Shown: positions 1,210 to 20,718 of the stretch, in pieces
How the letters are laid out: the number at the start of each line of letters is the position of its first letter
Numbering within the stretch: position 1 is the first letter of the stretch
Source of the DNA: Sandarakinorhabdus glacialis
GTDB taxonomy: Bacteria > Pseudomonadota > Alphaproteobacteria > Sphingomonadales > Sphingomonadaceae
DNA length: 42,081 nt
Reading direction: 5' to 3'
NCBI RefSeq assembly: GCF_014643455.1
Contig: NZ_BMJM01000016.1
Location: 1-42,081 of the forward strand
The notes under the pieces: generated by a model
Seen by the model: only the letters and a program-made list of their open reading frames with translations
Told to the model about the DNA's origin: nothing
Database searches by the model: none
Program-made: the position numbers and the translations under genes

Positions 1210-1983
1210 CTAAATAGTTGCTGGCTGGCGCACCCGCGCTCGCGCCGCCTCGCCAATATTCTCGCTCCAGCCGCAACGCTTTCCGATTACGTTCCCGCCC
1301 TGATTGTAGCGTGACAGCCCCAGCGCCGAAGCCGTCTCCCCTCCGACACCCTTCAGCAGGTACGTAACGACTGCCTCGAGATTTGGATAATAAATGCTCG
1401 GCGATGTCGTTGCCGCTCGCACTTTGCCGCCGATCCGTGACGTATGCAGCGCCCCCCTGCGATATGGCAGTCCGGTGACGCGGCAAAGCCACCGTCGTTG
1501 CCACCTCGTGACGACAGGCGCCGCATCTGGTGGGACGTGCATCAGGATATAGGCGTGCGCTCCCTTGCTCCCATCTCCGTCGTCGTCCTCCCGAACCCAG
1601 ACGCATGCAAAAGGTAGGCAACGCGATGCCAACAATTGCCTGTGCAGCGTCATGAGGGCACCGACCGCCTTTGCCCCATCCCGGCGCGCGACACCCGATT
1701 TTTCGAGGTGCACCGTCAGGTGCCTGTTGAGCGGCATGCCCAAGCGCACGGCATGACAACACGCAGCGATGATGTTCTGGGCTTGTCGCAAGGTCAGGCA
1801 GTCGCTCTCGCGGTCGCTGCGGTTGCGGGCTCCACCCCAGGATCCATTGGTTGTCCCACCGATGCTCGCAGCGTCATGACCGACACTCTTCAATTTACCT
1901 GTAAGAGCAAAATCCGTGCCAGTTTCGGTAATTGGCGCATTATCGCCACTTAGGCGGGCGCGATCGACCTTCATCGTGGGCAT
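1210..1983 (-). CDS. HUH-like Rep/endonuclease candidate, copy 1 (degenerate HUH)
   Basis: This appears to be a small replication- or transposition-type HUH protein (257 aa from ATG 1983), related to the protein at 17543-18190. The shared order of motifs, numbered from ATG 1983, is LTLRQAQ (63-69), a motif-1-like PLNRHLTVH (84-92), the HUH region AHAYILMHVP (142-151), and a single-Tyr motif YLLKG (208-212) matching the YxxK motif of Rep proteins. The paralogue reads AHVHILLHMP at the HUH site, so here the second metal-binding His is Tyr. An alternative in-frame ATG at 2067 lies two bases after the upstream stop. I prefer 1983 because GAGGGG precedes it and the extra N-terminal residues look non-conserved. 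It is the last gene of a three-gene minus-strand cluster with AlpA and PC4-like genes. The HUH assignment is inference from motifs. Confidence 0.6.
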   Translation of the reverse strand: MPTMKVDRARLSGDNAPITETGTDFALTGKLKSVGHDAASIGGTTNGSWGGARNRSDRESDCLTLRQAQNIIAACCHAVRLGMPLNRHLTVHLEKSGVARRDGAKAVGALMTLHRQLLASRCLPFACVWVREDDDGDGSKGAHAYILMHVPPDAAPVVTRWQRRWLCRVTGLPYRRGALHTSRIGGKVRAATTSPSIYYPNLEAVVTYLLKGVGGETASALGLSRYNQGGNVIGKRCGWSENIGEAARARVRQPATI

Positions 1984-3733: not shown

Positions 3734-3810
3734 TGGTGCACCCGACAGGATTCGAACCTGTGACCCCTGCCTTCGGAGGGCAGTACTCTATCCAGCTGAG
3801 CTACGGGTGC
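3734..3810 (-). tRNA. tRNA-Arg (anticodon CCG)
   Basis: On the minus strand the acceptor stem GCACCCG pairs with CGGGTGC, followed by discriminator A and an encoded CCA. The anticodon arm is CTGCC-CTCCGAA-GGCAG with anticodon CCG (reads CGG). The T arm is ACAGG-TTCGAAT-CCTGT and the D arm contains AGCTGGATA. All four arms pair. The 3' end faces the foreign DNA on the left, the usual side for integration into a tRNA gene. Confidence 0.97.
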
Positions 3811-9725: not shown

Positions 9726-9742
9726 CCGGAAGAGGACTCGAA
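9726..9742. repeat. attL: displaced copy of the tRNA-Leu 3' end
   Basis: CCGGAAGAGGACTCGAA here is identical to 20638-20654 inside tRNA-Leu. Just to the left, TGGTG also matches the tRNA's CCA end, except that one C of the CCC run is missing here. Sequence similarity stops after base 9742, marking the inner edge of the crossover region. Confidence 0.85.
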
Positions 9743-9794
9743 GATGAACCCTAATACGCTCAAAGTATTGCATTTAATATAAGTTCTTTGGGAA

Positions 9795-9820
9795 TATGCC
9801 CCCACATATGCCCCCAAGCT
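9795..9820. promoter_or_regulatory. Tandem TATGCCCCCA motifs, likely recombinase arm sites (left)
   Basis: TATGCCCCCA (9795-9804) is followed by ATATGCCCCCAAGCT (9806-9820). Nearly the same motifs occur at the other end of the island at 20297-20312 and 20496-20523. Repeats at both ends close to the crossover sites are what arm-type binding sites of tyrosine integrases, or AlpA/Xis sites, look like. Assignment is inference. Confidence 0.5.
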
Positions 9821-9847: not shown

Positions 9848-10468
9848 TCAAGCATCGCCAAGTCGCAACATTAACCCTGCCGTCACCGCGCTGCAATGAT
9901 CATCCAGCGTGTGATATCGTGCCCAAGCTTGGTCATAGGTACGCTGCCACATGCCTTTCGGCCTTGGGGGCAGTCCGGCGCCAAAGCCTTCACGCCCGCC
10001 AAGCTGGCGTTGCATGCGGAACATGGCTTCAAAGCACCGGTCATCCGCTCTCATGCGTTGGGATCGATGCGCCAGCCCCCAAGCCTTGGCGCATGCAAAC
10101 CTGTCGCCGCCGGGCGGCAAATATAGCTTCAGCGCTCGCCGGGTGCGAAAGGGGCAGAGCAGCCACCATCGCCGGCCGCCCAAGTGCGGCTTGCTGTGAA
10201 TCAGCGTCACACGCTGAATGACTGATTCCTGTGTAGCGCCGCTGCCCCGTGAATAGCACAGTTCCAGGGCCGCGTTGTTAAGGTCCGACATGTCGGCTGT
10301 ATAACCAATCGAACCGGCTGGCTGATCACCGTGTTGCCAGCTCAGTCCGCCACGGATCACATGTCCTTCACGAGCACGGCCGGTGCGCAGCATCCACCCG
10401 ATATCGATCCGCAGGCAGTCATCTGCCAGCGGCCGCCCGCCCGATCGCCCTGATCCAAATCCGCCCAC
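9848..10468 (-). CDS. MGGFGSGR-type conserved protein with lost zinc-ribbon cysteines (206 aa)
   Basis: The start MGGFGSGRSGG and the stretch LYLPPGGDRFACAKAWGLAHRSQ mark a family common on alphaproteobacterial islands and plasmids. As I recall, members carry two CxxC pairs (a zinc ribbon: CPxC...FACRxC). In this copy the pairs read CPFR and CAKA, so three of four cysteines appear missing. The C-terminal part LPPRPKGMWQRTYDQ is also typical. Function is unknown. It is the gene nearest the left island end, on the minus strand, 32 bases downstream of the Res gene's stop, so it may be the last gene of the restriction operon. Confidence 0.6.
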   Translation of the reverse strand: MGGFGSGRSGGRPLADDCLRIDIGWMLRTGRAREGHVIRGGLSWQHGDQPAGSIGYTADMSDLNNAALELCYSRGSGATQESVIQRVTLIHSKPHLGGRRWWLLCPFRTRRALKLYLPPGGDRFACAKAWGLAHRSQRMRADDRCFEAMFRMQRQLGGREGFGAGLPPRPKGMWQRTYDQAWARYHTLDDHCSAVTAGLMLRLGDA

Positions 10469-10500: not shown

Positions 10501-13092
10501 TTAGATATAAGGTGCGCTCAATGGACTGCGATATGCTTCTCTTGAGTTCGGAACTGAGCGCACCAGTTGCCGCACGTCTTCGGCCTTCAAATCCAGCATA
10601 AGGGTACTGCCATCGACTTCCGCAACGGCTTGGATGCGCCCAAACTTTGATCCATGCTTCTCGGCATAGTTGGCGAGGCCCCTGAGCTTTGACGCCCCAT
10701 CAGCAAGGAAGTCCCCGTGCGGGTCGATAATGTCCGCTATAACTGCACCGCTCGCATCCACGCTGAAAAACAGGAAGTCAGGTCGCAGAATCAGAGTGTC
10801 CCCGGCATAGTCATAGGCAATGCCAAGCGAATCCTGACTTGTGCGCGACGGGTTACGATACCAGCCAATGCGCCCATCCCGCTGCATCTCGACAGCCTGT
10901 ACCTTTGTTTCCAGCCCGTTCAATTCATCCGGGCACATAGCTTCGGCATCGCAAAGCAGATGATCAGGAAAGCGCGGCAAGTCGGTTTCGGTCCCGGCCT
11001 CAAGCGCCTTGGTCGGCTGGAGCCGTGAAGTCGGCTTCGCCAGCCGCACATCGAACGGTGTGGCGCTCAGCTCGCTTATCTCCCGATAGGCATCGCGGCG
11101 CTTGTCGGTGAGCAGCGCAATTGCCGTCTGGTATTCGGTCAGCCATTCATTGGCCAAGGCTTCCGCAGCTTGCTCCAGCCGCACCTTGACCGCATCGATC
11201 AGTCCCAGTGCGGCAATATCGGTGTGAGCATCAATAAGCGCATCTTCGAAGTCGTCGGTTTCCTCATTCTGCGCTGCCAGATGACCGCTATAGCTCGTCG
11301 CCAGATCGGGACTGATAATCCGCCCCGCCCGCCGATAGGCATCTTCGATCACGGCATAGTCAGCCGATTCCACAAACGCATCGAAGCTCGTCCCGCCGGT
11401 CGCAATGTCAGCGACCAGTGTTTGCCCTTCGACCGTGAGCACGTCGGCCCGCGCCGTCGCAATCTCGCCCGCCAGATCGACGCGTAGCCCGTCCAGCACC
11501 TTGTGCATCGCTGCGTGAGCCTTCTTGCCCGCGTTCGGCAAAAGCCCATCATGCGCCAGCTCGTGCGCCAGAGCGGTAAGCCGTTTCACCGGGCGCGCGG
11601 TCTTCTTGGGCAGGGATTGGGAAGGCAGGGAAACAAATTTGTCCCATAGTGCTTCCGGCATCGCAGGGTTAGGGAAAAGCTCAACCGGCTGGATCAGCAC
11701 GCGGCGCAGCGGCGTATCGCCTTCAGCTTCATTGCCCAGCATAAGCGCATCGGCCACAGCCTTTACGGTAGCCTTGTCGAACCGGGGTAAAAGGCAATCG
11801 ACCGCGTTAAGCTGATCATTGCCGGGAATGCGCCGTGCCAGGGGCGAGCGCACCATTCGGCCCAAAAGCTGCGTGATATGCGTCCGGTCGCTCGCCGCCC
11901 GGAATGAAACCATGACTTCGGCGCGCGGGCAATCCCAGCCGGTGCTGATCGCATCCTTGGCAATCAGGATGCGCACGCCATCGCGTTCCTGCACCCGCTC
12001 CGGCTCTATGTAGGGGACGGAGTAGCTCCCGAATTGTTCCGTGCGGTGCTCGCCCAGCACGTTGGCAACGCAGTCTTGTGGCAAGTCCGGCCAGGTCTCG
12101 AAGATGGTATCAATCCAGCGCCCAATCTCATTGGGATCGGGATTGTTCGGCACCTGAAGCACCATGAGCGGCTGGACTGTTTCTCCCTGCCCCTGATCAG
12201 CGCTATATTCGGCCCACGCTTTCGTCATGGCGCGCAGCCGCTCCGTCCCGCGGCGCAAGAGCACAGTTGCGAAGTCGCCAATCTCATCGGGCACGTCCAG
12301 CTTAATCGTATCTTTGATCAAACCGCTGTCCTGCACCTTCTTGGAATCCACAACGACATTGCGAAGCGTGTCGTGTCGCTTCATTCCCTCGATGGCATCA
12401 TTGAAGCGTTTTACCGTCGCGGAAATACCCCAAACGATGGGAATGCCGGGGACGGTGCCGGTGCCGTTAATTAGCTGCTTCACAATCGTCGGCTTGCCGC
12501 GCTCGCCCGTATTGCCACCATCGCGCATCCCGCGGTGAGCCTCATCAAGCACCAGGTAAAGCGTCAAGTCCGGGTCTTCGATTGTGTTCTGGATCGTCTG
12601 CCAGATCGTATGCGCGCGCAAATCGGGCATGAGCGTTTCGCCCGTAGCGGTCTTTTCCAACCCCTCATCGTCGGGATCGTGCCCGCGCACCAGCAGGCTC
12701 TTCTTGCCCAGCTTCTGCGTGTTGAGGAAATACACCTTCCCCGGCTCGAACTTCTCCCGGCTGAAGGTGTTTTCGACCGTCACCAGATCAGAGACCGTGA
12801 GCTTGTCCGCAGCCTGAAACAGCCGCCACTTGGATTGCTCATTTAATGAAGGATCATCGCTGAACCAGATCACGACCGCGCCGGAATCGGCCTCGAAATC
12901 GTGTTCGTCATTACCATAGAACAAGGCTTCGAACACAGCCGCCGCCATGACAGTCTTGCCCGCGCCTGTTGTGGCGGTGAGCGAAAAGGCGTGCGAATCC
13001 TTGTCTTCGTGCCAGCGTTTCCGCGCCTTCTTCATCCGGTCGAGTACTTCGGCAACCGCCTCGTCCTGATAATCTTTCAGCGTGAACTTCAT
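10501..13092 (-). CDS. Type III-like restriction endonuclease subunit (Res), DEAH helicase
   Basis: This is the helicase/nuclease subunit of a type III-like restriction system. Superfamily-2 motifs are clear: Walker A TATTGAGKTVMA (about 39-50), DEAH box LVLDEAHRGM (183-186), motif III WGISATVKRF, and motif VI QLLGRMVRSPLARRI. At the C terminus a nuclease-like site reads PDFLFFSVDASGAV followed by IADIIDPHGDF (about 771-795). The first Asp fits PD-(D/E)xK, but the expected ExK is replaced by DxxDPH, with a Lys only about ten residues later (SKLRG). At 863 aa it is somewhat shorter than EcoP1I/EcoP15I Res. The start ATG lies three bases after the Mod stop, so the two are co-translated. Confidence 0.88.
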   Translation of the reverse strand: MKFTLKDYQDEAVAEVLDRMKKARKRWHEDKDSHAFSLTATTGAGKTVMAAAVFEALFYGNDEHDFEADSGAVVIWFSDDPSLNEQSKWRLFQAADKLTVSDLVTVENTFSREKFEPGKVYFLNTQKLGKKSLLVRGHDPDDEGLEKTATGETLMPDLRAHTIWQTIQNTIEDPDLTLYLVLDEAHRGMRDGGNTGERGKPTIVKQLINGTGTVPGIPIVWGISATVKRFNDAIEGMKRHDTLRNVVVDSKKVQDSGLIKDTIKLDVPDEIGDFATVLLRRGTERLRAMTKAWAEYSADQGQGETVQPLMVLQVPNNPDPNEIGRWIDTIFETWPDLPQDCVANVLGEHRTEQFGSYSVPYIEPERVQERDGVRILIAKDAISTGWDCPRAEVMVSFRAASDRTHITQLLGRMVRSPLARRIPGNDQLNAVDCLLPRFDKATVKAVADALMLGNEAEGDTPLRRVLIQPVELFPNPAMPEALWDKFVSLPSQSLPKKTARPVKRLTALAHELAHDGLLPNAGKKAHAAMHKVLDGLRVDLAGEIATARADVLTVEGQTLVADIATGGTSFDAFVESADYAVIEDAYRRAGRIISPDLATSYSGHLAAQNEETDDFEDALIDAHTDIAALGLIDAVKVRLEQAAEALANEWLTEYQTAIALLTDKRRDAYREISELSATPFDVRLAKPTSRLQPTKALEAGTETDLPRFPDHLLCDAEAMCPDELNGLETKVQAVEMQRDGRIGWYRNPSRTSQDSLGIAYDYAGDTLILRPDFLFFSVDASGAVIADIIDPHGDFLADGASKLRGLANYAEKHGSKFGRIQAVAEVDGSTLMLDLKAEDVRQLVRSVPNSREAYRSPLSAPYI

Positions 13093-13095
13093 GGC

Positions 13096-15249
13096 TCAGC
13101 GCCCCATCGAAAAACGGAAGTTGGCAAGATACGATTCATATAGCCGCACCGGCTCGACCGCGTCTGGCAATTGCCGCACGACCGATTGGAAGCGCCGCTC
13201 ATCATCGGTGACGATATAGGCAAAGCGGATGCTGTCCTTGCCGTGGATCGCTTCGGCAAAGGGTGCCGCCTGATCCAGATCAGTCATCAGGCCATAGCAA
13301 TCGGCCACGCTCCAGCCGCCTTCCGGCAGGGTCTCAATGCGGCTTCCCTCGCTCCCGGCGCGCATCCACAGCAGTGGGGCGATGCGCTCGAACGCGCGAT
13401 TATGGCTGACTGCGACCGGGGTTTCATAGGTGAGCGTGAGAAACTCGGCATTTTCCGCGAATCCACTAAGCATTGGGAACTCGTCGGTGAATTTGTAATC
13501 GCCCCTGATCGGCTGACCTTCAGGGGTTTGACCCGTGATCGCAGCGTTGATCCGGGGCTTGGTGATGTAATCGCAAATGCCCCATTGCTCCCATTCGGGA
13601 TCGCCGGGACGAAAGCCATCGATGCGCAGCAGAGCGTGTTCGTCAGCACCAACTTCATTGTTGGTAATGGAGATACATTGCCGCCTGCCATCGTCCTGTT
13701 TGTTTAGGCGCATTACTGCGTGAGCAGTTGTCCCAGACCCCGAGAAGAAGTCTAAAACAATTGCCTTCGGTTTGTGCGAAACCGCGAATCGGAGCGCATC
13801 CTCAACGGCGTATAAGGATTTTGGAAATGGAAAGCGGCGGCCCCCGAGCAACGCCGTCAGCATATTGGTGCCTCCAGTCTCGGCATTATGCGACCGCATA
13901 TTCCAGACCCGCTTTGGAGACCTTCCAACGCTTGCATCTGCGGCAACATGACCCTCAACAGACCCATCAGGCGCGTGCCCAGTTAGAGCTATCTCGCCGG
14001 ATCGTATGCGCGCAATCACACCCGTCTGAAGATATTTGATCGAGCACGTTCGATTGGCTGGCCTCCAGCTAGTCGCCTTTACGAAGCCTTCAGACCAGTT
14101 TCTCCTCAAAACGTCCGGGGTGAGCCCCCAAAGCATCTCTGTGCCATCCGGTTTTAGTGGCCAGATAGCGATCGTCCCTTCAGGGGAGACAATCGTATTG
14201 CGATCAACATCTGGAGTGATGGGTTCGCCAATCGAATGTACGTGCCCAGTATTCTCGTCCACGAATATTGGATAAAATTGGTTTGGCCGCGCGGCCCGAA
14301 CACTTGTAGGCTCTCGTCTTCTCAACAAGAGCCATTCGATAGGCTGAACCGCACCATCTAGGTCTCGAATGTCCTCATCACCGGGAGAGGGTAGCATATT
14401 GGTTGTCCACCACTGGACACGCGCAGCGCCAAAAAACACGTAAAAGATATGTTCTTCGACGCGGGAGAATCTGCCGGGGCGAACGGCCCCCTTTGCACTG
14501 ATGATGCTCGTGATCATATTCATATCACCATCAGGGAACACCTGCTCCAGAAGCATCCCCAGTCGAAGATATTCCTTCTCGTCAATCGATACGATCAGAA
14601 CCGATTCAACGGGATTGAGTAGCTCCCTCGCAACGAGAAGCCGCCGCTCCATCATCGCAAGCCACTTAGAATGACGATACTGATCGTCGCCTTCCACGTA
14701 ATCGTTGTTGTATTTCCAATCCCTTGCGCCGGTGTTGTATGGCGGGTCGATATAGATCGCATCCACCTTGCCGCGATGGGTGAAGGTCAGCGCCTCCAGC
14801 GCATGAAAATTTTCGCCATTGATCACGGTGTGAAACGGCTTGTCACCGCCGCGTTCGACCTTCCCTGTGCTGACAAGGCCGGGATAGATATAATCCCGAA
14901 ATTCAGCCACCACGCACAGATCGGCAACCGGCGCTTGCGTCCGCTCCGGCTTATCGGTGTAGAGCAGGGACAGGCTGGCGACGCGCTCCGCACCCTTGCC
15001 CGCAAGGCTCGCCACCTTCCAAAGCCGGTGATCGCCCTTCTTGGTCGATCCACGTTCGGGGAGGATGCGCACCTTGTCACCCTTACGTATGGGGCGACCG
15101 GGAAGCTCAACATTCTCAGGCCGGTGCCGCTCGAAATTGAGGCCGAACGCGCGGCGCGAAGACAGCGCCCGAAACTCTCGCTCCAGCTCCCGCCCCAGAT
15201 CGGAATCCTTGGCCTTGGCCTTGGCAATTAGATCAGTCAGACGCGACAT
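13096..15249 (-). CDS. Type III-like DNA methyltransferase subunit (Mod)
   Basis: This protein is predicted to methylate an amino group of adenine or cytosine and set the specificity of the restriction pair. The DPPY motif appears in AIYIDPPYNTG (about residues 168-171), before the SAM-binding VLDFFSGSGTTAH (about 498-510), the beta-class order of type III Mod proteins. The variable region in between (about 250-480) should hold target recognition. I place the start at ATG 15249 (MSRLTDLIAKAKAKDSDLGREL), giving 717 aa; the frame stays open to 15510, but that part runs through the direct repeat and is non-coding by composition. It lies immediately upstream of Res. The cognate site cannot be read from sequence. 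Confidence 0.9.
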   Translation of the reverse strand: MSRLTDLIAKAKAKDSDLGRELEREFRALSSRRAFGLNFERHRPENVELPGRPIRKGDKVRILPERGSTKKGDHRLWKVASLAGKGAERVASLSLLYTDKPERTQAPVADLCVVAEFRDYIYPGLVSTGKVERGGDKPFHTVINGENFHALEALTFTHRGKVDAIYIDPPYNTGARDWKYNNDYVEGDDQYRHSKWLAMMERRLLVARELLNPVESVLIVSIDEKEYLRLGMLLEQVFPDGDMNMITSIISAKGAVRPGRFSRVEEHIFYVFFGAARVQWWTTNMLPSPGDEDIRDLDGAVQPIEWLLLRRREPTSVRAARPNQFYPIFVDENTGHVHSIGEPITPDVDRNTIVSPEGTIAIWPLKPDGTEMLWGLTPDVLRRNWSEGFVKATSWRPANRTCSIKYLQTGVIARIRSGEIALTGHAPDGSVEGHVAADASVGRSPKRVWNMRSHNAETGGTNMLTALLGGRRFPFPKSLYAVEDALRFAVSHKPKAIVLDFFSGSGTTAHAVMRLNKQDDGRRQCISITNNEVGADEHALLRIDGFRPGDPEWEQWGICDYITKPRINAAITGQTPEGQPIRGDYKFTDEFPMLSGFAENAEFLTLTYETPVAVSHNRAFERIAPLLWMRAGSEGSRIETLPEGGWSVADCYGLMTDLDQAAPFAEAIHGKDSIRFAYIVTDDERRFQSVVRQLPDAVEPVRLYESYLANFRFSMGR

Positions 15250-15326: not shown

Positions 15327-15414
15327 AGCGCCAAGATTTTCCGAAATTATAAGCAATCTTGCCACGTGGCGGCTGGTGGAGCGCGCCGTCGCTGCCAGAC
15401 CGCCAGCTGCTTGC
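15327..15414. repeat. 88-bp direct repeat copy 1; relic of an HUH gene 3' end
   Basis: Bases 15327-15365 are identical to 17523-17561 over 39 bp, and similarity continues without gaps to 15414 (17610). Read on the minus strand it encodes SKQLAVWQRRR, then APPAATWQDCL and a stop at 15347-15349, clearly the C terminus of a protein like the one at 17543-18190 (GKRLGVWQRRR, then TPPAVMWQDCL). No upstream part of that gene survives here. The perfect core contains a short hairpin, CAAGATT/AATCTTG. Confidence 0.85.
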
Positions 15415-15486
15415 TGATGAACCAGACTTGCAAACGTTTGGGGAGCGACCATAACCGTGTCGCTGCCCTGAGAGGGGCGGTGAGGC

Positions 15487-15605
15487 TTCGAAACCTCGAA
15501 CGCAGAGCACCGGTCACGACATCGTGGCCGGGTGGCGGGCGCGCATGTCCAAGGCCTTTCGGGGCCCAAAGGCGTCCGCGCCTTGCGCTCTGCCGAGGTT
15601 TCGAA
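15487..15605. repeat. Large imperfect palindrome with nested hairpin (cruciform)
   Basis: TTCGAAACCTCG plus GCAGAGC (15487-15508, with AAC bulged between the two blocks) pairs with GCTCTGC plus CGAGGTTTCGAA (15587-15605): 19 paired bases. A nested stem CAAGGC/GCCTTG (15550-15555 and 15580-15585), with CCTTT/AAAGG inside it, folds within. It lies between the HUH relic and the lipoprotein gene in otherwise non-coding DNA. Bulged long stems of this type are used by recombinases or HUH nickases on single strands; a role in mRNA structure is also possible. Confidence 0.65.
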
Positions 15606-15678
15606 CACCCGGCTTGTCGCCGGAGCCTCCTTCACAGACGTGGCAATTTGATATTGCCATCTTCTAGGGGGAAATATC

Positions 15679-16056
15679 ATGAAACTGATTGCGATATCAC
15701 TTAGCGCAATGGCGGTGCTGTCAGGGTGTGCCCACACGTCAAAGGGCTATCGAGAGCAAGCGCCACGGCTGGAACTGTTTTCGGACAAAGCCCCGCAAAC
15801 CGTACTGGGCTGCATCAACGAAAAATGGCAGCGTGACGGGAGAGCGACGCAGTATACACCCCTCCCTACCGGGGGCACGGTGTCGGTTGATATTGGTACA
15901 ATATTGATTTCGTTCGGAAACCTGCTGATGCTCGTCGATGCGGAAACGGTTGAGAGGAAAACTCGTGTCCGATTTTATAGAATGAGCGGGCTGGGGGCGA
16001 ACGATTATCGCGACGTCGAATTACAGATCAAAACTTGCACCGAGAGCGGGAGCTGA
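15679..16056 (+). CDS. Small lipoprotein (125 aa), cargo gene
   Basis: The N terminus MKLIAISLSAMAVLSGCAHTSKG is a lipoprotein signal peptide with lipobox LSGC. The mature region has LGCINEKWQ, TPLPTGGTVSVDIGTILISFGNLLMLVDAE, and ends in VELQIKTCTES; two cysteines could form a disulfide. The pattern resembles small periplasmic lipoproteins of phage and island origin, but I cannot name a family. A GGGGGAAAT sequence lies just before the start. GC and codon use are lower than in the chromosomal genes. The following enzyme gene starts just after its stop, so the two form an operon bracketed by the 88-bp repeats. Confidence 0.7.
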   Translation: MKLIAISLSAMAVLSGCAHTSKGYREQAPRLELFSDKAPQTVLGCINEKWQRDGRATQYTPLPTGGTVSVDIGTILISFGNLLMLVDAETVERKTRVRFYRMSGLGANDYRDVELQIKTCTESGS

Positions 16057-16058
16057 CT

Positions 16059-17519
16059 TTGCGCACAAGCAAGACGCATCCTTTGCAGATCGCCGAAGTC
16101 TGCGCAGCGCCGGGCTATGGCAAAGTCGGCATCACATTCTGCCCAGGGAAAAAGCAGCCAGGCGCCATGACCGGCGGCTGGGACCGCGACCTAGGTATCG
16201 ATCTCGATGCCGTTGCCGACTGGGGCGCCGCGGCCGTCGTGTCGCTAATCGAAGACCATGAGTTGAAGGCGCTTCATGTCGCGGAGCTCGGAAAGATGAC
16301 GCGACAGCGACACATGACATGGTTCCACATGCCGATACGCGATGTGTCGGTTCCCGACGCCCAGTTCGAATTAGCGTGGCGTGATGCAGCGGAAGGGCTG
16401 CGCGCGCGCCTTCGCGACGGCTTCAACGTGCTTGTGCATTGCAAGGGTGGCCTTGGCCGAGCGGGCACAGTGGGCGCCCGTTTGTTAATCGAGCTTGGCA
16501 TGTCGCCCGCATCTGCAATTTCAGCGGTTCGAGCGGCCCGACCGGGCGCAATAGAGACCAATGCTCAGGAAACCTATGTCAGGGCGCTACAAGCGGCGCC
16601 TGAGGCCTTTCCAGATACTTCCGGGGTAGGAGTGCAGGATCGCGCAGCTGGCGCCTTGCTAGGGCTTGCTGCGGGCGATGCCGTGGGCACCACACTGGAG
16701 TTCAAACCAAGGGATCGTTACCCCCAGCTGACCGATATGATCGGCGGCGGGCCGTTTGGCCTGAAAGCTGGCGAATGGACCGATGACACCGCCATGGCAC
16801 TGGCGCTTGCAGACTCACTCTTTGACAAGTCCAATCTTGATGAAGCTGACTTAATGCGTCGGTTCGTTCAATGGCGACAGGACGGCGTCTATTCCTGCAC
16901 TGGTCACTGTTTTGACATCGGAATGACGACTTCAGCCGCCTTGTCGCGTTGGCAAAAGACGGGCGATCCTGTTGCCGGTTCAACCGAGCCCAACACCGCT
17001 GGGAATGGCAGCCTCATGCGCCTGTCACCCGTTGCAATCCGGTTCTTCAAAGATCGTCCACGGCTTCGTGATGTCGCAGCCCGACAAAGCCGTACGACAC
17101 ACGCGGCGCCTGAAGCTGTTGATGCATGCGTGGCTTTTGCAGACGCTCTGGCTGACGCGATCGAGGGGCGACCCAGGACAGAAGTCATGCGCAGCCGTGG
17201 GGACGGTATGTCGGGCTCGATTGCAACCATAATGGCCGGATCGTGGCGCGGAAGGGCTCGGCCGAAAGTCAAAGCGTCAGGCTATGTCGCGCATTCATTG
17301 GAGGCGTCGATGTGGTCGGTCGGTCGAGCAGGAAGCTATCAGGAAGCTGTGCTGCTGGCCGCCAATTTGGGCGATGATGCCGACACGACTGCCGCGATCA
17401 CCGGTCAGCTTGCCGGCGCCTTGTACGGGGTTACTGGAATCCCGGAAGGGTGGTTAGACAAACTTGCCTGGCGACCGCGGATTTGGGGAATGGCTAAAGC
17501 ACTACTGAGCGACGATTGA
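16059..17519 (+). CDS. Fusion of a tyrosine/dual-specificity phosphatase and an ADP-ribosylglycohydrolase
   Basis: The N-terminal domain (about 1-185) has the CX5R phosphatase loop VHCKGGLGRAGT (Cys 128, Arg 134), preceded by candidate general-acid aspartates in MPIRDVSVPD. The C-terminal domain (about 195-486) is a DraG-type ADP-ribosylglycohydrolase: GALLGLAAGDAVGTTLEF, the metal-binding WTDDTAMALALADSL, and NLGDDADTTAAITGQLAGALYG. It should therefore remove ADP-ribose, and perhaps phosphate, from proteins, RNA or metabolites. I favour TTG 16059 as start, with GGGAG seven bases upstream and the preceding stop at 16054-16056; a TTG at 16035 would overlap the lipoprotein gene by 22 bases. The fusion occurs in many bacteria, but its target is unknown. 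It is cargo of the tRNA-Leu island. Confidence 0.85.
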   Translation: MRTSKTHPLQIAEVCAAPGYGKVGITFCPGKKQPGAMTGGWDRDLGIDLDAVADWGAAAVVSLIEDHELKALHVAELGKMTRQRHMTWFHMPIRDVSVPDAQFELAWRDAAEGLRARLRDGFNVLVHCKGGLGRAGTVGARLLIELGMSPASAISAVRAARPGAIETNAQETYVRALQAAPEAFPDTSGVGVQDRAAGALLGLAAGDAVGTTLEFKPRDRYPQLTDMIGGGPFGLKAGEWTDDTAMALALADSLFDKSNLDEADLMRRFVQWRQDGVYSCTGHCFDIGMTTSAALSRWQKTGDPVAGSTEPNTAGNGSLMRLSPVAIRFFKDRPRLRDVAARQSRTTHAAPEAVDACVAFADALADAIEGRPRTEVMRSRGDGMSGSIATIMAGSWRGRARPKVKASGYVAHSLEASMWSVGRAGSYQEAVLLAANLGDDADTTAAITGQLAGALYGVTGIPEGWLDKLAWRPRIWGMAKALLSDD

Positions 17520-17522
17520 TCG

Positions 17523-17610
17523 AGCGCCAAGATTTTCCGAAATTATAAGCAATCTTGCCACATGACGGCTGGCGGTGTGCGCCGTCGCTGCCACACACCC
17601 AGCCGCTTGC
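17523..17610. repeat. 88-bp direct repeat copy 2; 3' end of the intact HUH gene
   Basis: This is the partner of 15327-15414. It covers the last 22 codons of the minus-strand HUH gene, its stop codon, and 20 bp beyond. The 39-bp perfect core includes the CAAGATT/AATCTTG hairpin and starts three bases after the fusion gene's stop. The two copies are in the same orientation, 2.2 kb apart. Confidence 0.85.
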
Positions 17611-18190
17611 CTATGACAATGCTGGCTTCACCCCGCCGTGGAAGGCCCAGGGAAGCGCCCGTGGCGTGATCGCAGCCCTTCAGCATATACTTCAACTTTC
17701 GTTTCAGATTGGCTTCATGCAAGGGCGACACGCCCGGCTGTGCGCCCGCGCCGTGTATCCGCTGGCATTGCATCACCCCTGCAACATATTGGCCAGGGAG
17801 CAGCGCCTTTGCCCATTCCAGCGGCTTGGTCCGAAACAACGGGTCAAGTTCGGCTGGCATATGCAACAGGATATGCACATGCGCTCCATTTTTGCGGCTG
17901 TTCTCCTGCACCCATGACCATGCCAGCCTATACCCGTTCAATCGCAGCCAATCCGCGATGCGCTTGATAAATGCCCCTGTAAGACGGGCATTACAGCTCG
18001 CATCCGCCCCGCCAAGCTGCCACAGGATGGTGATAAACCGGTTGAACGGCAGCCCGGCCGCCTTGGCACGGTGTGATGCATCGATCAGCAACCAGCATTG
18101 CCTCGCAGTCAGATGGCGTGACTTCCGCAGGGCGCTGTTACGCGCGCCGCCTCGCCCTGAAGGTCGCTGGCCTGTCACTGTTGATCGCAA
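17543..18190 (-). CDS. HUH-like Rep/endonuclease candidate, copy 2 (215 aa)
   Basis: The motifs, in order, are LTARQ (27-31), a motif-1-like PFNRFITIL (48-56), a canonical HUH site AHVHILLHMP (103-112; His 104, His 106), and YMLKG (168-172), the single-tyrosine motif with following Lys. These fit a one-tyrosine HUH enzyme that nicks single-stranded DNA during rolling-circle replication or transposition. It is a distant paralogue of the 1210-1983 gene, which has lost one His. The frame begins at TTG 18190 shortly after a stop, and a GTG five codons in is an alternative. An AlpA-like gene lies 137 bases upstream on the same strand. The family is not one I can name, and the enzymatic role is inferred from motifs only. 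Confidence 0.65.
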   Translation of the reverse strand: MRSTVTGQRPSGRGGARNSALRKSRHLTARQCWLLIDASHRAKAAGLPFNRFITILWQLGGADASCNARLTGAFIKRIADWLRLNGYRLAWSWVQENSRKNGAHVHILLHMPAELDPLFRTKPLEWAKALLPGQYVAGVMQCQRIHGAGAQPGVSPLHEANLKRKLKYMLKGCDHATGASLGLPRRGEASIVIGKRLGVWQRRRTPPAVMWQDCL

Positions 18191-18327: not shown

Positions 18328-18498
18328 TCAGGACTTGGGCAATGCATCAAACCAAAGCTTGGCGTCGCATTCCGCAATCCGCGTGGCTCGGCCAATCTTG
18401 CGAAATGCCAACCGGCCGGTGTTATGCTCCCGGTATACGGTCGAACGCGCAACGCCGAAGCGCCGCGTAAATTCCTTAATAGTCATGAGCCGGTCCAT
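18328..18498 (-). CDS. AlpA-family helix-turn-helix regulator, copy 2 (56 aa)
   Basis: This gene is short, but its start is strong: AGGAGG lies six bases before ATG 18498. The protein reads MDRLMTIKEFTRRFGV, then ARSTVYREHNTGRLAFRK and IGRATRIAECDAKLWFDAL, a complete AlpA-type winged helix: the TIKEFTRRFGVARSTVYR helix-turn-helix, the 'RKIGRATRI' wing, and a last helix. It parallels the AlpA-like protein at 2459-2641, sharing the IGR-x-(S/T)-RI core and the spacing. It probably regulates the integrase or acts as excision factor for the island and may control the HUH gene downstream. Confidence 0.85.
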   Translation of the reverse strand: MDRLMTIKEFTRRFGVARSTVYREHNTGRLAFRKIGRATRIAECDAKLWFDALPKS

Positions 18499-18631: not shown

Positions 18632-19243
18632 TTATGCCGGCAGTCCAAGCACGGAGAGAAGTCTCGCCATCGGGATTGCCGTTGGGTGCCTTCCCGCAAG
18701 CTTAGCAATTTCCGCAATAGTCATTTCGGCGGGGGGCTCGCCGAGTTTATCTCGGTATCGAGCTAGCGCACCCTTTTTAGTTTCAGCAGGATACGAAACT
18801 AAATTCTGAAATCTGTTATCGTGAGCGATCAGCGCTTCGCCAGCGCGAAAATAATCAGCGTGCGGCCGGTAATTTTCGCTCTTTTTCCATGCGGCGCTCA
18901 AATAAGATGTCACCCGGTGCTTGGCAAGTTTTCCCATAATACGACGGTGTGTGGACGCGCGGCTCTGTCCAGGATATTTTTCGGCAAAGTCTTCCGCGAT
19001 AGCATTATTTTTGCGAAGTTCTTCGGGGATTTTGCCATCTAGCCAAGCATCCGCATCCGCTTGGACATAAGGTGCAAGTAGCGGCCAATCTGGTTCGACC
19101 TTTCGTCCGACCCGACCTTTGCAAAGCTTGGTTGCCGCGCAACGAACGGCCGCTTTGCCGTGCCGCTTGATCAAGGCTTGCAGCTCGGCTTCCACAAGCA
19201 GCTGTTCCGGTGATGCGCCAGATGCGCCTTGCAGATTGGTCAT
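18632..19243 (-). CDS. Unknown island protein (203 aa)
   Basis: I do not recognise the family. The protein is helical and basic, without membrane segments. An N-terminal region (LLVEAELQALIKRHGKAAVRCAATKL) is followed by a middle KNNAIAEDFAEKYPGQSRASTHRRIMGKLAKHRVTSYLSAAWKKSE that could contain a DNA-binding helical bundle. A C-terminal MTIAEIAKLAGRHPTAIPMARLLSVLGLP looks like a second short helix-turn-helix. The start ATG 19243 lies 25 bases downstream of the integrase stop, so it is probably in the integrase operon. A role in controlling excision or replication of the island is possible but unsupported. Confidence 0.6.
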   Translation of the reverse strand: MTNLQGASGASPEQLLVEAELQALIKRHGKAAVRCAATKLCKGRVGRKVEPDWPLLAPYVQADADAWLDGKIPEELRKNNAIAEDFAEKYPGQSRASTHRRIMGKLAKHRVTSYLSAAWKKSENYRPHADYFRAGEALIAHDNRFQNLVSYPAETKKGALARYRDKLGEPPAEMTIAEIAKLAGRHPTAIPMARLLSVLGLPA

Positions 19244-19267: not shown

Positions 19268-20464
19268 TCACGGTTTTTGCGCACGCAGCTGATCCAGATA
19301 ATCACTCCACCATTTCGCCATCTTCACGCGTTCATCCCAGTATTGCCCGCGATGATACGCACCGCGTGTCGCATCACTATCACCATGCGCCAGCGCCCGT
19401 TCAATGGCATCGGGGTGCCACCGCCCGCTCTGGTTCAACAGTGTAGATGCAGTGGATCGCAAGCCATGGCCGGTCACTTCGTCATTTCCAAAGCCCATTC
19501 GCCGGAACGCGGCATTTACTGTGTTTTCGCTCATCGGCTTCAGCCGGGTCTGCATGGATGGGAACAGATAGGGCCAGCTGCCCGTCAGGTCGCGCAGCTC
19601 ATCGATCATGCCCAAAACTTGGCTCGATAGCGGCACAGAATGCGGCCGGCGCGCTTTCATCTTGCCAGCCGGTATCTGCCAGATCGCGTTTTCGATATCG
19701 AATTCGACCCATTCAGCGTGTCGCAGTTCGCCCGGCCGCACGAACACATGCGGCGCTATTCGCAACGCTAGCAGGGTCACCGGACTACCGTTGAAGCCGT
19801 CAATGGCCCGCAGCAGCGCGCCAAGCTTCTCAGGCTCCAGAATGGCCGCGTGATGCTTCACCTTGGGGGAAATCAGCCCGCCCTTCAGCAAGGCCGCAGG
19901 ATCAGCCTTTGCGCGATCCGTCGCCACAGCGAACCGAAACACCCGGCTGGCGAACGCGCGCACCCGGCGCGCAGTTTCGTGATGACCCTTGCGCTCTAGC
20001 TGTTTCAGCGGGGCGAGGATTTCCGAAGGCTCGATATCTACAATAGGCCGACGCCCGATTGCGGGGCGTAGCAGGTCAAGAAACCAGCGCGCCTTGATCA
20101 GTGTCGCATCGGATTTGCCTTCTCCCTCCAGCTTTGTGGCAATGAATTCCTCGGCAATGACCGCAAAGCTGTTGTCAGCATTGAGCTTAGCTTGAAGCTT
20201 TTCCCGCTTGCGTGCCATCGCTGGATCACGGTCCTCGGCAAGCATGGCACGCGCTTCATCCCGTTTGCGCCGCGCTGTCGCCAGCGACACTTCAGGATAT
20301 GCCCCCAAAGCTAGCCGCTTCTCCAGGCCGGCGTGCCGATATTTGAAACGCCATAGCTTCGATGCGTTCGGGCATACTTCGATATACAGCCCCTTCTCAT
20401 CAGCTCGCCGAAACGGCTTGGCAGCTGGCCGAAAAGCCCTGATTTCTGTGTCTTTTAGCGCCAT
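19268..20464 (-). CDS. Tyrosine integrase of the tRNA-Leu island (P4 type)
   Basis: This site-specific recombinase should insert and excise the island. The N-terminal DUF4102-type domain (MALKDTEIRAFRPAAKPFRRADEKGLYIEV, then WRFKYRHAGLEKRLALGAYPEVSLATARRKRDEAR) is characteristic of P4-like integrases. Catalytic residues are visible: Arg 243 in FVRPGELRHAEW, His 333 and Arg 336 in GHGLRSTAS, His 360 in ALAHGD and Tyr 370 in RGAYHRGQYWDERV. The length of 398 aa is typical. It ends the gene string adjacent to tRNA-Leu, reading away from it; the start codon overlaps an inverted copy of the ATGCCCCC motif (20462-20473), so the integrase may autoregulate by binding its own promoter. Confidence 0.95.
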   Translation of the reverse strand: MALKDTEIRAFRPAAKPFRRADEKGLYIEVCPNASKLWRFKYRHAGLEKRLALGAYPEVSLATARRKRDEARAMLAEDRDPAMARKREKLQAKLNADNSFAVIAEEFIATKLEGEGKSDATLIKARWFLDLLRPAIGRRPIVDIEPSEILAPLKQLERKGHHETARRVRAFASRVFRFAVATDRAKADPAALLKGGLISPKVKHHAAILEPEKLGALLRAIDGFNGSPVTLLALRIAPHVFVRPGELRHAEWVEFDIENAIWQIPAGKMKARRPHSVPLSSQVLGMIDELRDLTGSWPYLFPSMQTRLKPMSENTVNAAFRRMGFGNDEVTGHGLRSTASTLLNQSGRWHPDAIERALAHGDSDATRGAYHRGQYWDERVKMAKWWSDYLDQLRAQKP

Positions 20465-20523
20465 ATGGGGGCATCACCTGCACATGATTGCCCGCCATGC
20501 CCCCTGATATGCCCCCAAAGCTT
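20297..20523. promoter_or_regulatory. ATATGCCCCCAAAGCT motifs, likely recombinase arm sites (right)
   Basis: ATATGCCCCCAAAGCT occurs at 20297-20312 (inside the integrase gene) and again at 20507-20522. CATGCCCCCT lies at 20496-20505, and an inverted copy (ATATGGGGGCAT) covers the integrase start near 20463. The left end carries the same motif at 9795-9820. They cluster upstream of the integrase, between it and attR. Binding by the integrase or the AlpA-like protein is inferred. Confidence 0.5.
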
Positions 20524-20631: not shown

Positions 20632-20718
20632 TGGTGCCCGGAAGAGGACTCGAACCTCCACGCCCTTACGAGCGCTAGCACCTGAAGCTAGTGCGTCTAC
20701 CAATTCCGCCATCCGGGC
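20632..20718 (-). tRNA. tRNA-Leu (anticodon CAG)
   Basis: The acceptor stem GCCCGGA pairs with TCCGGGC, followed by A and an encoded CCA. The anticodon arm is CTAGC-TTCAGGT-GCTAG with anticodon CAG (reads CUG). A long variable arm (GCTCGTAAGGGCG) is present as expected for leucine tRNAs, and the T arm is TGGAGG-TTCGAGT-CCTCTT-like. The gene is intact although the island has used its 3' end as attachment site. Just beyond the CCA end, GTCACC/GGTGAC (20612-20631) forms a small hairpin that may terminate it. Confidence 0.97.
20638..20654. repeat. attR: attachment core inside tRNA-Leu
   Basis: The 17-bp sequence identical to 9726-9742 lies in the T arm and acceptor stem of tRNA-Leu, the usual crossover position of P4-type integrases. 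Integration restores a complete tRNA. Confidence 0.85.

Follow-up and report, generated by a model that had tools for sequence, protein, structure and literature searches.

The direct repeat at the 3' end of an HUH endonuclease gene of Sandarakinorhabdus glacialis is most likely the scar of two related mobile islands that were stacked in one tRNA gene and fused by a deletion. We put at roughly 75% the probability that the window (the whole stretch of 42,081 nucleotides that was analysed) holds two accreted islands joined by one single deletion. The repeat lies inside a 10.9-kb island in tRNA-Leu(CAG), the parts of which follow each other in the order integrase, AlpA-type HTH gene, HUH gene, a conserved site (SITE1), cargo 1, a relic of a second HUH gene, a second copy of the site (SITE2), cargo 2, the GGS gene and attR (Table 1).

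Table 1. Parts of the tRNA-Leu(CAG) island, in window coordinates.
Feature	Position	Strand	Remarks
tRNA-Leu(CAG), integration target, 3' end = attL	20632..20718	-	
ATATGCCCCC repeat, attL side	20507..20516	.	further copy 20297-20306
Tyrosine integrase	19268..20464	-	Pfam Phage_integrase, Phage_int_M, Arm-DNA-bind_3
Uncharacterised island gene	18632..19243	-	relatives in L047 and L055
AlpA-type HTH gene (stretch scanned)	18334..18498	-	PF12728 HTH_17, 8.9e-7
Intact HUH endonuclease gene, REP_ORF2-G2P-like	17543..18190	-	
SITE1, 31-bp conserved site across HUH stop codon	17527..17557	-	40.7 bits
Cargo 1: fused DSP/PTP phosphatase + ADP-ribosylglycohydrolase	16035..17519	+	
Cargo 1: putative lipoprotein (phrog_914)	15679..16056	+	no Pfam match; lipoprotein by eye
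Second HUH gene relic, codons about 182-215	15350..15451	-	upper end = inferred deletion junction
SITE2	15331..15361	-	40.7 bits
Cargo 2: type III methyltransferase (Mod)	13096..15249	-	PADLOC 1.8e-284
Cargo 2: type III restriction subunit (Res)	10501..13092	-	domain and PADLOC scans
GGS gene (MGGxGSGRxGGRP), conserved right-end gene	9848..10468	-	
Two ATATGCCCCC repeats, attR side	9794..9815	.	
attR, exact 17-bp copy of tRNA-Leu 3' part	9726..9742	-	

All four copies of ATATGCCCCC in the window (9794, 9806, 20297 and 20507) fall within the two island ends and, by analogy, they might represent arm sites of the integrase; the HTH_17 gene would hold the AlpA role. Comparable layouts are present in relatives at tRNA-Leu, -Thr and -Ser, and tRNA-Leu is a target in use among relatives of the genus: in the 1.2-1.5 kb downstream of this gene in eight of them, two carry an integrase, one a short integrase-like fragment and four none, the locus ending there in the eighth. 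No similar island was found in 24 genus genomes, and no tRNA gene near the MFS gene within its retrieved flanks in 10 relatives. Another HUH gene, a distant member of this family, is located at 1267-1860 (- strand) with a tRNA-Arg nearby (3734-3810), and probably belongs to a second island in the window.

The earlier note on this DNA had described a duplication of the 3' end of the HUH gene plus 20 bp about 2.2 kb away, and the duplication is real. The direct repeat (15327-15420 versus 17523-17616, spacing 2196 bp) is 94 bp long and 88% identical; its 11 mismatches all fall at repeat positions 40-90, leaving the initial 39 bp (the final 16 coding bases of the HUH gene, the stop codon and 20 bp downstream) without a difference. 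Among the matches listed, this pair is the only + strand stretch with repeated 30-mers in the window; no inverted recurrence of a 30-mer was found there, and no third copy in the organism's own genome. The outer copy runs on into 34 codons of the C-terminus of a second HUH gene, with 59% amino acid identity, so that its description as a relic was right. Its description as an outside copy was not: the same island encloses it, and the position of attR at the far end places it mid-island. Beyond the core, the two HUH ends differ at 11 of 55 bp, and thus they represent different alleles. Cargo does lie between the repeats, as had been noted, the phosphatase and the ADP-ribosylglycohydrolase being one fused gene.

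The identical core corresponds to a conserved 31-bp site, hereafter SITE. In nine relatives of the HUH gene (41-54% protein identity) the core lies no more than about 220 bp from the HUH end, and the coding ends differ; in L021/L053 it is degenerate. Among HUH relatives of about 40% identity, SITE lies 1.7 kb off in L019/L051, and L022/L054 and L010 have none. A profile of 31 positions was built from 23 sites (these training sites score 32-49 bits) and gave two matches above 12 bits in 536 kb of shuffled sequence. A 30-base pattern, allowing up to three mismatches, occurred at 30 places in 28 of the 397 genomes of the family, the backwards control giving none; HUH relatives are present in 51 of the same 397 genomes. 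Twenty-five of the 30 places fall within stretches of up to 20 kb with a full or partial integrase, HUH or GGS match. Eight of the 30 (L095, L096, L097, L098, L103, L107, L154 and L159) have a GGS or integrase match but no HUH-profile match, and another HUH family is possible there. The five places other than these 25 have no family match: three of them, located within ORFs, are possibly chance matches (L160, L161 and L164), and two are strong solo SITEs near tRNA-Met (L157:2919-2949, 47.6 bits; L163:7376-7406, 46.8 bits) with no integrase, HUH or GGS match. Hence the core is a conserved site of tRNA islands that borders variable cargo, as had been suggested, and solo copies do exist, so that it is not confined to full-length HUH genes, but these solo copies have no HUH gene beside them and no recognised family gene. 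The idea that the core is bound to HUH 3' ends does not agree with the eight places devoid of an HUH-profile match, nor with the occurrence of SITE before the GGS gene in cargo-free islands and on plasmids.

Different functions were considered for SITE itself. The hairpin previously proposed at the core finds no support in covariation, since over 31 distinct sites facing columns pair no more than independent columns do, and an RNA hairpin was rejected on the same ground. A sigma-70 promoter was rejected because no conserved position exists at the -35 distance, and a promoter of the cargo because the MmeI-type gene of L045 and cargo 1 of the window both point against SITE (L090 and L094 have a spacing similar to that of L045). 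A phage packaging site is not supported either. An exact 20-base pattern retrieved ten IMG/VR contigs, nine of which exceed 12 bits with the 31-bp profile, and some scores match those of island sites (39.0 in L113; 35.8 and 35.6 in L116); these two loci are AT-rich (GC 0.32 and 0.29), their matches are internal to long ORFs, and an integrase, HUH or GGS match is absent from all ten loci, so that we take them as chance matches. A BLAST search of one SITE against phages and plasmids gave matches only at E values of 0.5 or more.

SITE is tied by its position to the GGS gene rather than to the HUH gene, as far as sequence comparison can tell. The GGS profile matched 47 of 326 genomes of the order; 44 loci were tabulated, 32 of them with a full GGS gene, and SITE is present upstream on the GGS strand in 31 of these 32, some of which had been chosen through SITE (L155, L158, L159 and L162) or through the HUH gene (L044-L052). 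Among the loci chosen by GGS alone (L090-L107), 17 of 18 have SITE, L090 being one that resembles L045. A single SITE is found in 28 of the 32 loci, two in three of them (the window, L048 and L155) and none in one (L105). The backwards profile reached a top score of 23.6 in any locus, so that sites under about 25 bits (L104 and L106) have to be considered weak. In 11 loci 8-33 bp separate the end of SITE from the GGS start (in L048 and L155 this applies to the second SITE), cargo-free islands having SITE directly upstream of GGS; in the other loci the interval ranges from 148 bp to 13 kb and usually embeds cargo.

The association extends well beyond this order. GGS relatives were retrieved on 27 plasmid records (31-39% identity among the best 15 of the 27), and in all 14 of these 15 that were examined the strand has its best SITE score within the retrieved stretch 6-23 bp ahead of the GGS start or of the start of the match. 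These scores are 21-28 bits in Phaeobacter, Leisingera and their relatives, 21.9 in Alicyclobacillus, 15.1 in Haloferax and -7.7 in Solidesulfovibrio, two of the 14 being below zero; five of the records (L166, L167 and L172-L174) are not independent because they share a common block of 80-94% identity. In these Rhodobacterales plasmids SITE and GGS form a common block of about 700 bp, several pairs having unlike flanks, and in some pairs a motif of 32-44 bp recurs beyond the block at a shifted distance; the block may be a unit that moves by itself. Ten distant chromosomal GGS loci were also inspected, and in the eight where the start could be placed the SITE position is the best of the strand in six and the second best in two (scores from -3.6 to 21.4). 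Viral contigs gave GGS at one locus, without SITE, and no match to the HUH profile. That SITE and GGS were kept together over such a distance suggests a direct interaction, SITE possibly being the binding site for the GGS protein or a partner.

Since 28 of 32 full-GGS loci have one SITE, an island with two of them points to a combination of parts from two islands. SITE2 and the HUH relic occupy the usual place of HUH and SITE, before cargo 2, GGS and attR; thus, the right part appears to be what is left of one island, and the left part, through cargo 1, the front of another. On this basis, two related integrase-type islands would have entered the same tRNA-Leu(CAG) gene. One would have supplied the integrase, the AlpA-type HTH gene, the HUH gene, SITE1 and cargo 1, and the other its final 34 HUH codons, SITE2, the type III Mod and Res genes, GGS and attR. 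A single deletion would have taken the GGS gene and the right att site of the first island together with the integrase, the HTH gene and most of the HUH gene of the second. The GGS gene, rather than the HUH gene, would have SITE as its cis-partner, and the 39-bp core would be identical because SITE is constrained in each island, not because it is a transposon end.

This scenario is in agreement with locus L155, where SITE1 precedes an in-frame fusion of about 30-40 GGS codons to an HUH C-terminus, after which come cargo, another HUH relic, SITE2 and an intact GGS gene. The GGS-5'/HUH-3' fusion is the junction expected if tandem islands lose their middle, and the junction of the window is of the same kind, entered from cargo 1. 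A relic of a second element within one att pair, as in accretion composites, is also present in the window (HUH relic, SITE2 and second cargo). Nothing shows the tandem stage directly: an internal att site between the elements was looked for and not found (one attR copy scored in the window), and the interval from cargo 1 to the HUH relic yielded no GGS or integrase relic. Intact tandem pairs were not encountered either, and with no relative known to have just one of the halves, a one-step change is not observed. Locus L048 speaks against the fusion of two islands, since its two SITEs (40.1 and 32.6 bits) surround a type IIG gene and neither side carries a family relic, a layout that a deletion would have to reach by chance; a fortunate deletion and a cassette bracketed by SITEs would account for it equally well.

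Two alternatives were also considered. The first, a tentative one that we hold to be rather unlikely, is that the GGS protein and SITE form an undescribed, self-contained DNA-acting module, common to bacteria and at least one archaeon, and that the sphingomonad islands use it to load defence cargo between SITE and GGS; SITE-bracketed cargo would be what remains, clean in L048 and eroded in the window and in L155. The second, also unlikely, assigns to the GGS protein or to some other recombinase the insertion of circular cargo at SITE, so that the cargo ends up with a SITE on each side. The relic-free L048 fits such a cassette insertion, two SITEs surround cargo in three of the 32 full-GGS loci, many islands carry cargo between SITE and GGS, the two being adjacent in 11 loci, and SITE precedes GGS far beyond the sphingomonads. 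However, two SITEs are what one would expect from an integron-like system, and 28 of 32 loci have one; the window and L155 contain HUH and GGS relics; and genes also lie between HUH and SITE in L051, in L155 and, judging from the spacing, probably in L091. Moreover, GGS matched no family or solved structure: neither Pfam nor NCBIfam recognised the window protein, scans of two GGS proteins returned nothing from NCBIfam and a single weak Pfam match below the cut-off, and the GGS profile had no match in PDB. The predicted GGS structure is of low confidence (pLDDT 62).

A local duplication of the HUH 3' end within one island by ordinary recombination, followed by drift, appears very unlikely. Only about 120 bp are common to both copies and constraint could have kept SITE, but such an event leaves unexplained both cargo 1 between the copies and the normal place of SITE2 before cargo 2 and GGS, and it fits poorly with 11 of 55 differences beyond the core against none of 39 within it. 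The least probable explanation, and in our opinion a scarcely tenable one, is the capture by rolling circle proposed in the earlier note, driven by the HUH protein as in IS91/ISCR with the core as its origin: the core closely follows the genes of one HUH subfamily and the HUH fold finds some weak support, but SITE is not tied to HUH (islands without an HUH-profile match carry it, the ground on which an HUH origin was rejected, and it precedes GGS on plasmids), the motif has a single Tyr with no IS91-type Pfam match, and the island has the ordinary att ends of an integrase.

As for the HUH protein, an alignment of 11 proteins shows no variation at the two His of the HUH motif or at the Tyr and Lys of YMLK; this Tyr (Y168) has no partner four residues on, and the other invariant Tyr, Y135, is outside the motif. 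The sole Pfam match is REP_ORF2-G2P (PF23343, 1.3e-5), just under the cut-off. The predicted fold (pLDDT 79.8) finds its best PDB matches in AAV Rep domains, with parvovirus NS1 nucleases slightly lower; since these matches have E values of 1.2e-3 and weaker and TM-scores mostly of 0.3-0.4, with unrelated proteins also among them, the model lends an HUH fold weak support. The protein would be a replication initiator. Two other elements were observed near these genes. A hairpin-forming noncoding element lies at 15487-15610 (the fold of 15451-15660 is about -117 kcal/mol); for the stretch 15465-15640, matches of 70-81% identity were obtained in 23 plasmid records (22 sphingomonad-type), and of 18 further genomes tested, three match it at a single place each. 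A GC-rich palindrome after a T-run (CAGTTT..TCGCCCGCGCGCGCGAG-like) was recognised by eye downstream of HUH or GGS in L045, L050, L048, L051 and L155, and is a possible origin or repeat.

Concerning the cargo, nine of 16 selected proteins from 12 islands belong to restriction-modification systems (seven of the eight run in PADLOC, plus the MmeI-type enzymes of L045 and L154). Two of the remaining seven come from the window (phosphatase/ADP-ribosylglycohydrolase and putative lipoprotein), two are an SRAP and a PIN protein, and three lack a Pfam match (from L049, L101 and L155). The SITE-GGS pair often frames restriction-modification genes. The SRAP and PIN proteins are encoded between HUH and SITE (L051 and L155), so that cargo is possible on either side of SITE.

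Accretion is known for ICEs and IMEs, which can integrate in tandem at one att site and then decay, leaving relics (PMC5704250). The island analysed here resembles these composites, or CIMEs, in its relics and, on the reading proposed above, in tandem entry and decay; unlike CIMEs as described in that source, it has no internal att site that could be found and no recognised conjugation module, and a SITE-GGS pair frames the cargo. A second likeness is with the PICMI satellites of Vibrionaceae, which are small islands with an integrase, an AlpA-type regulator and a replication gene, and for some loci of which multiple integration, loss and recombination are suspected by their authors (PMC10803314). 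Unlike PICMI as presented there, which target fis, these islands target tRNA genes and contain GGS and SITE, with an HUH-profile match in 20 of the 32 full-GGS loci. The int, alpA and prim (DUF3987) set of PICMI is represented in the window by int and HTH_17, with an HUH gene in the place of prim; no DUF3987 was found among the window island proteins scanned, and the relative L159 carries a PICMI-type DUF3987 gene. The Pseudomonas tmRNA/tRNA islands share the integrase (intY there), AlpA, an inovirus Gp2-like protein and defence cargo, and the accessible part of the article does not mention GGS or SITE (PMC12595487). IS91/ISCR elements also have an HUH enzyme beside a conserved sequence and cargo; the IS91 transposase has two catalytic tyrosines, Y249/Y253, in contrast with the single one of the window HUH motif (PMC5714925). 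Besides, their conserved end is tied to the transposase gene and they are described as moving without the ends of a site-specific integrase, unlike SITE, which is not tied to HUH, and the window island with its tRNA attL/attR and integrase. No description of GGS or SITE was found in the accessible portions of the open literature on PICMI, accretion, inovirus Gp2 with AlpA, satellites in Sphingomonadales and ISCR/IS91, where a sequence cannot be searched. The SITE-GGS pair is what appears to be new, the repeat itself apparently reflecting a known process.

The repeat offers a readable case of stacking and fusion among tRNA islands. Following it up matters more for having exposed a family of small Sphingomonadales islands, often with restriction-modification cargo, and a conserved DNA site positionally tied to an unnamed protein family that is also present on plasmids of distant bacteria and of an archaeon.
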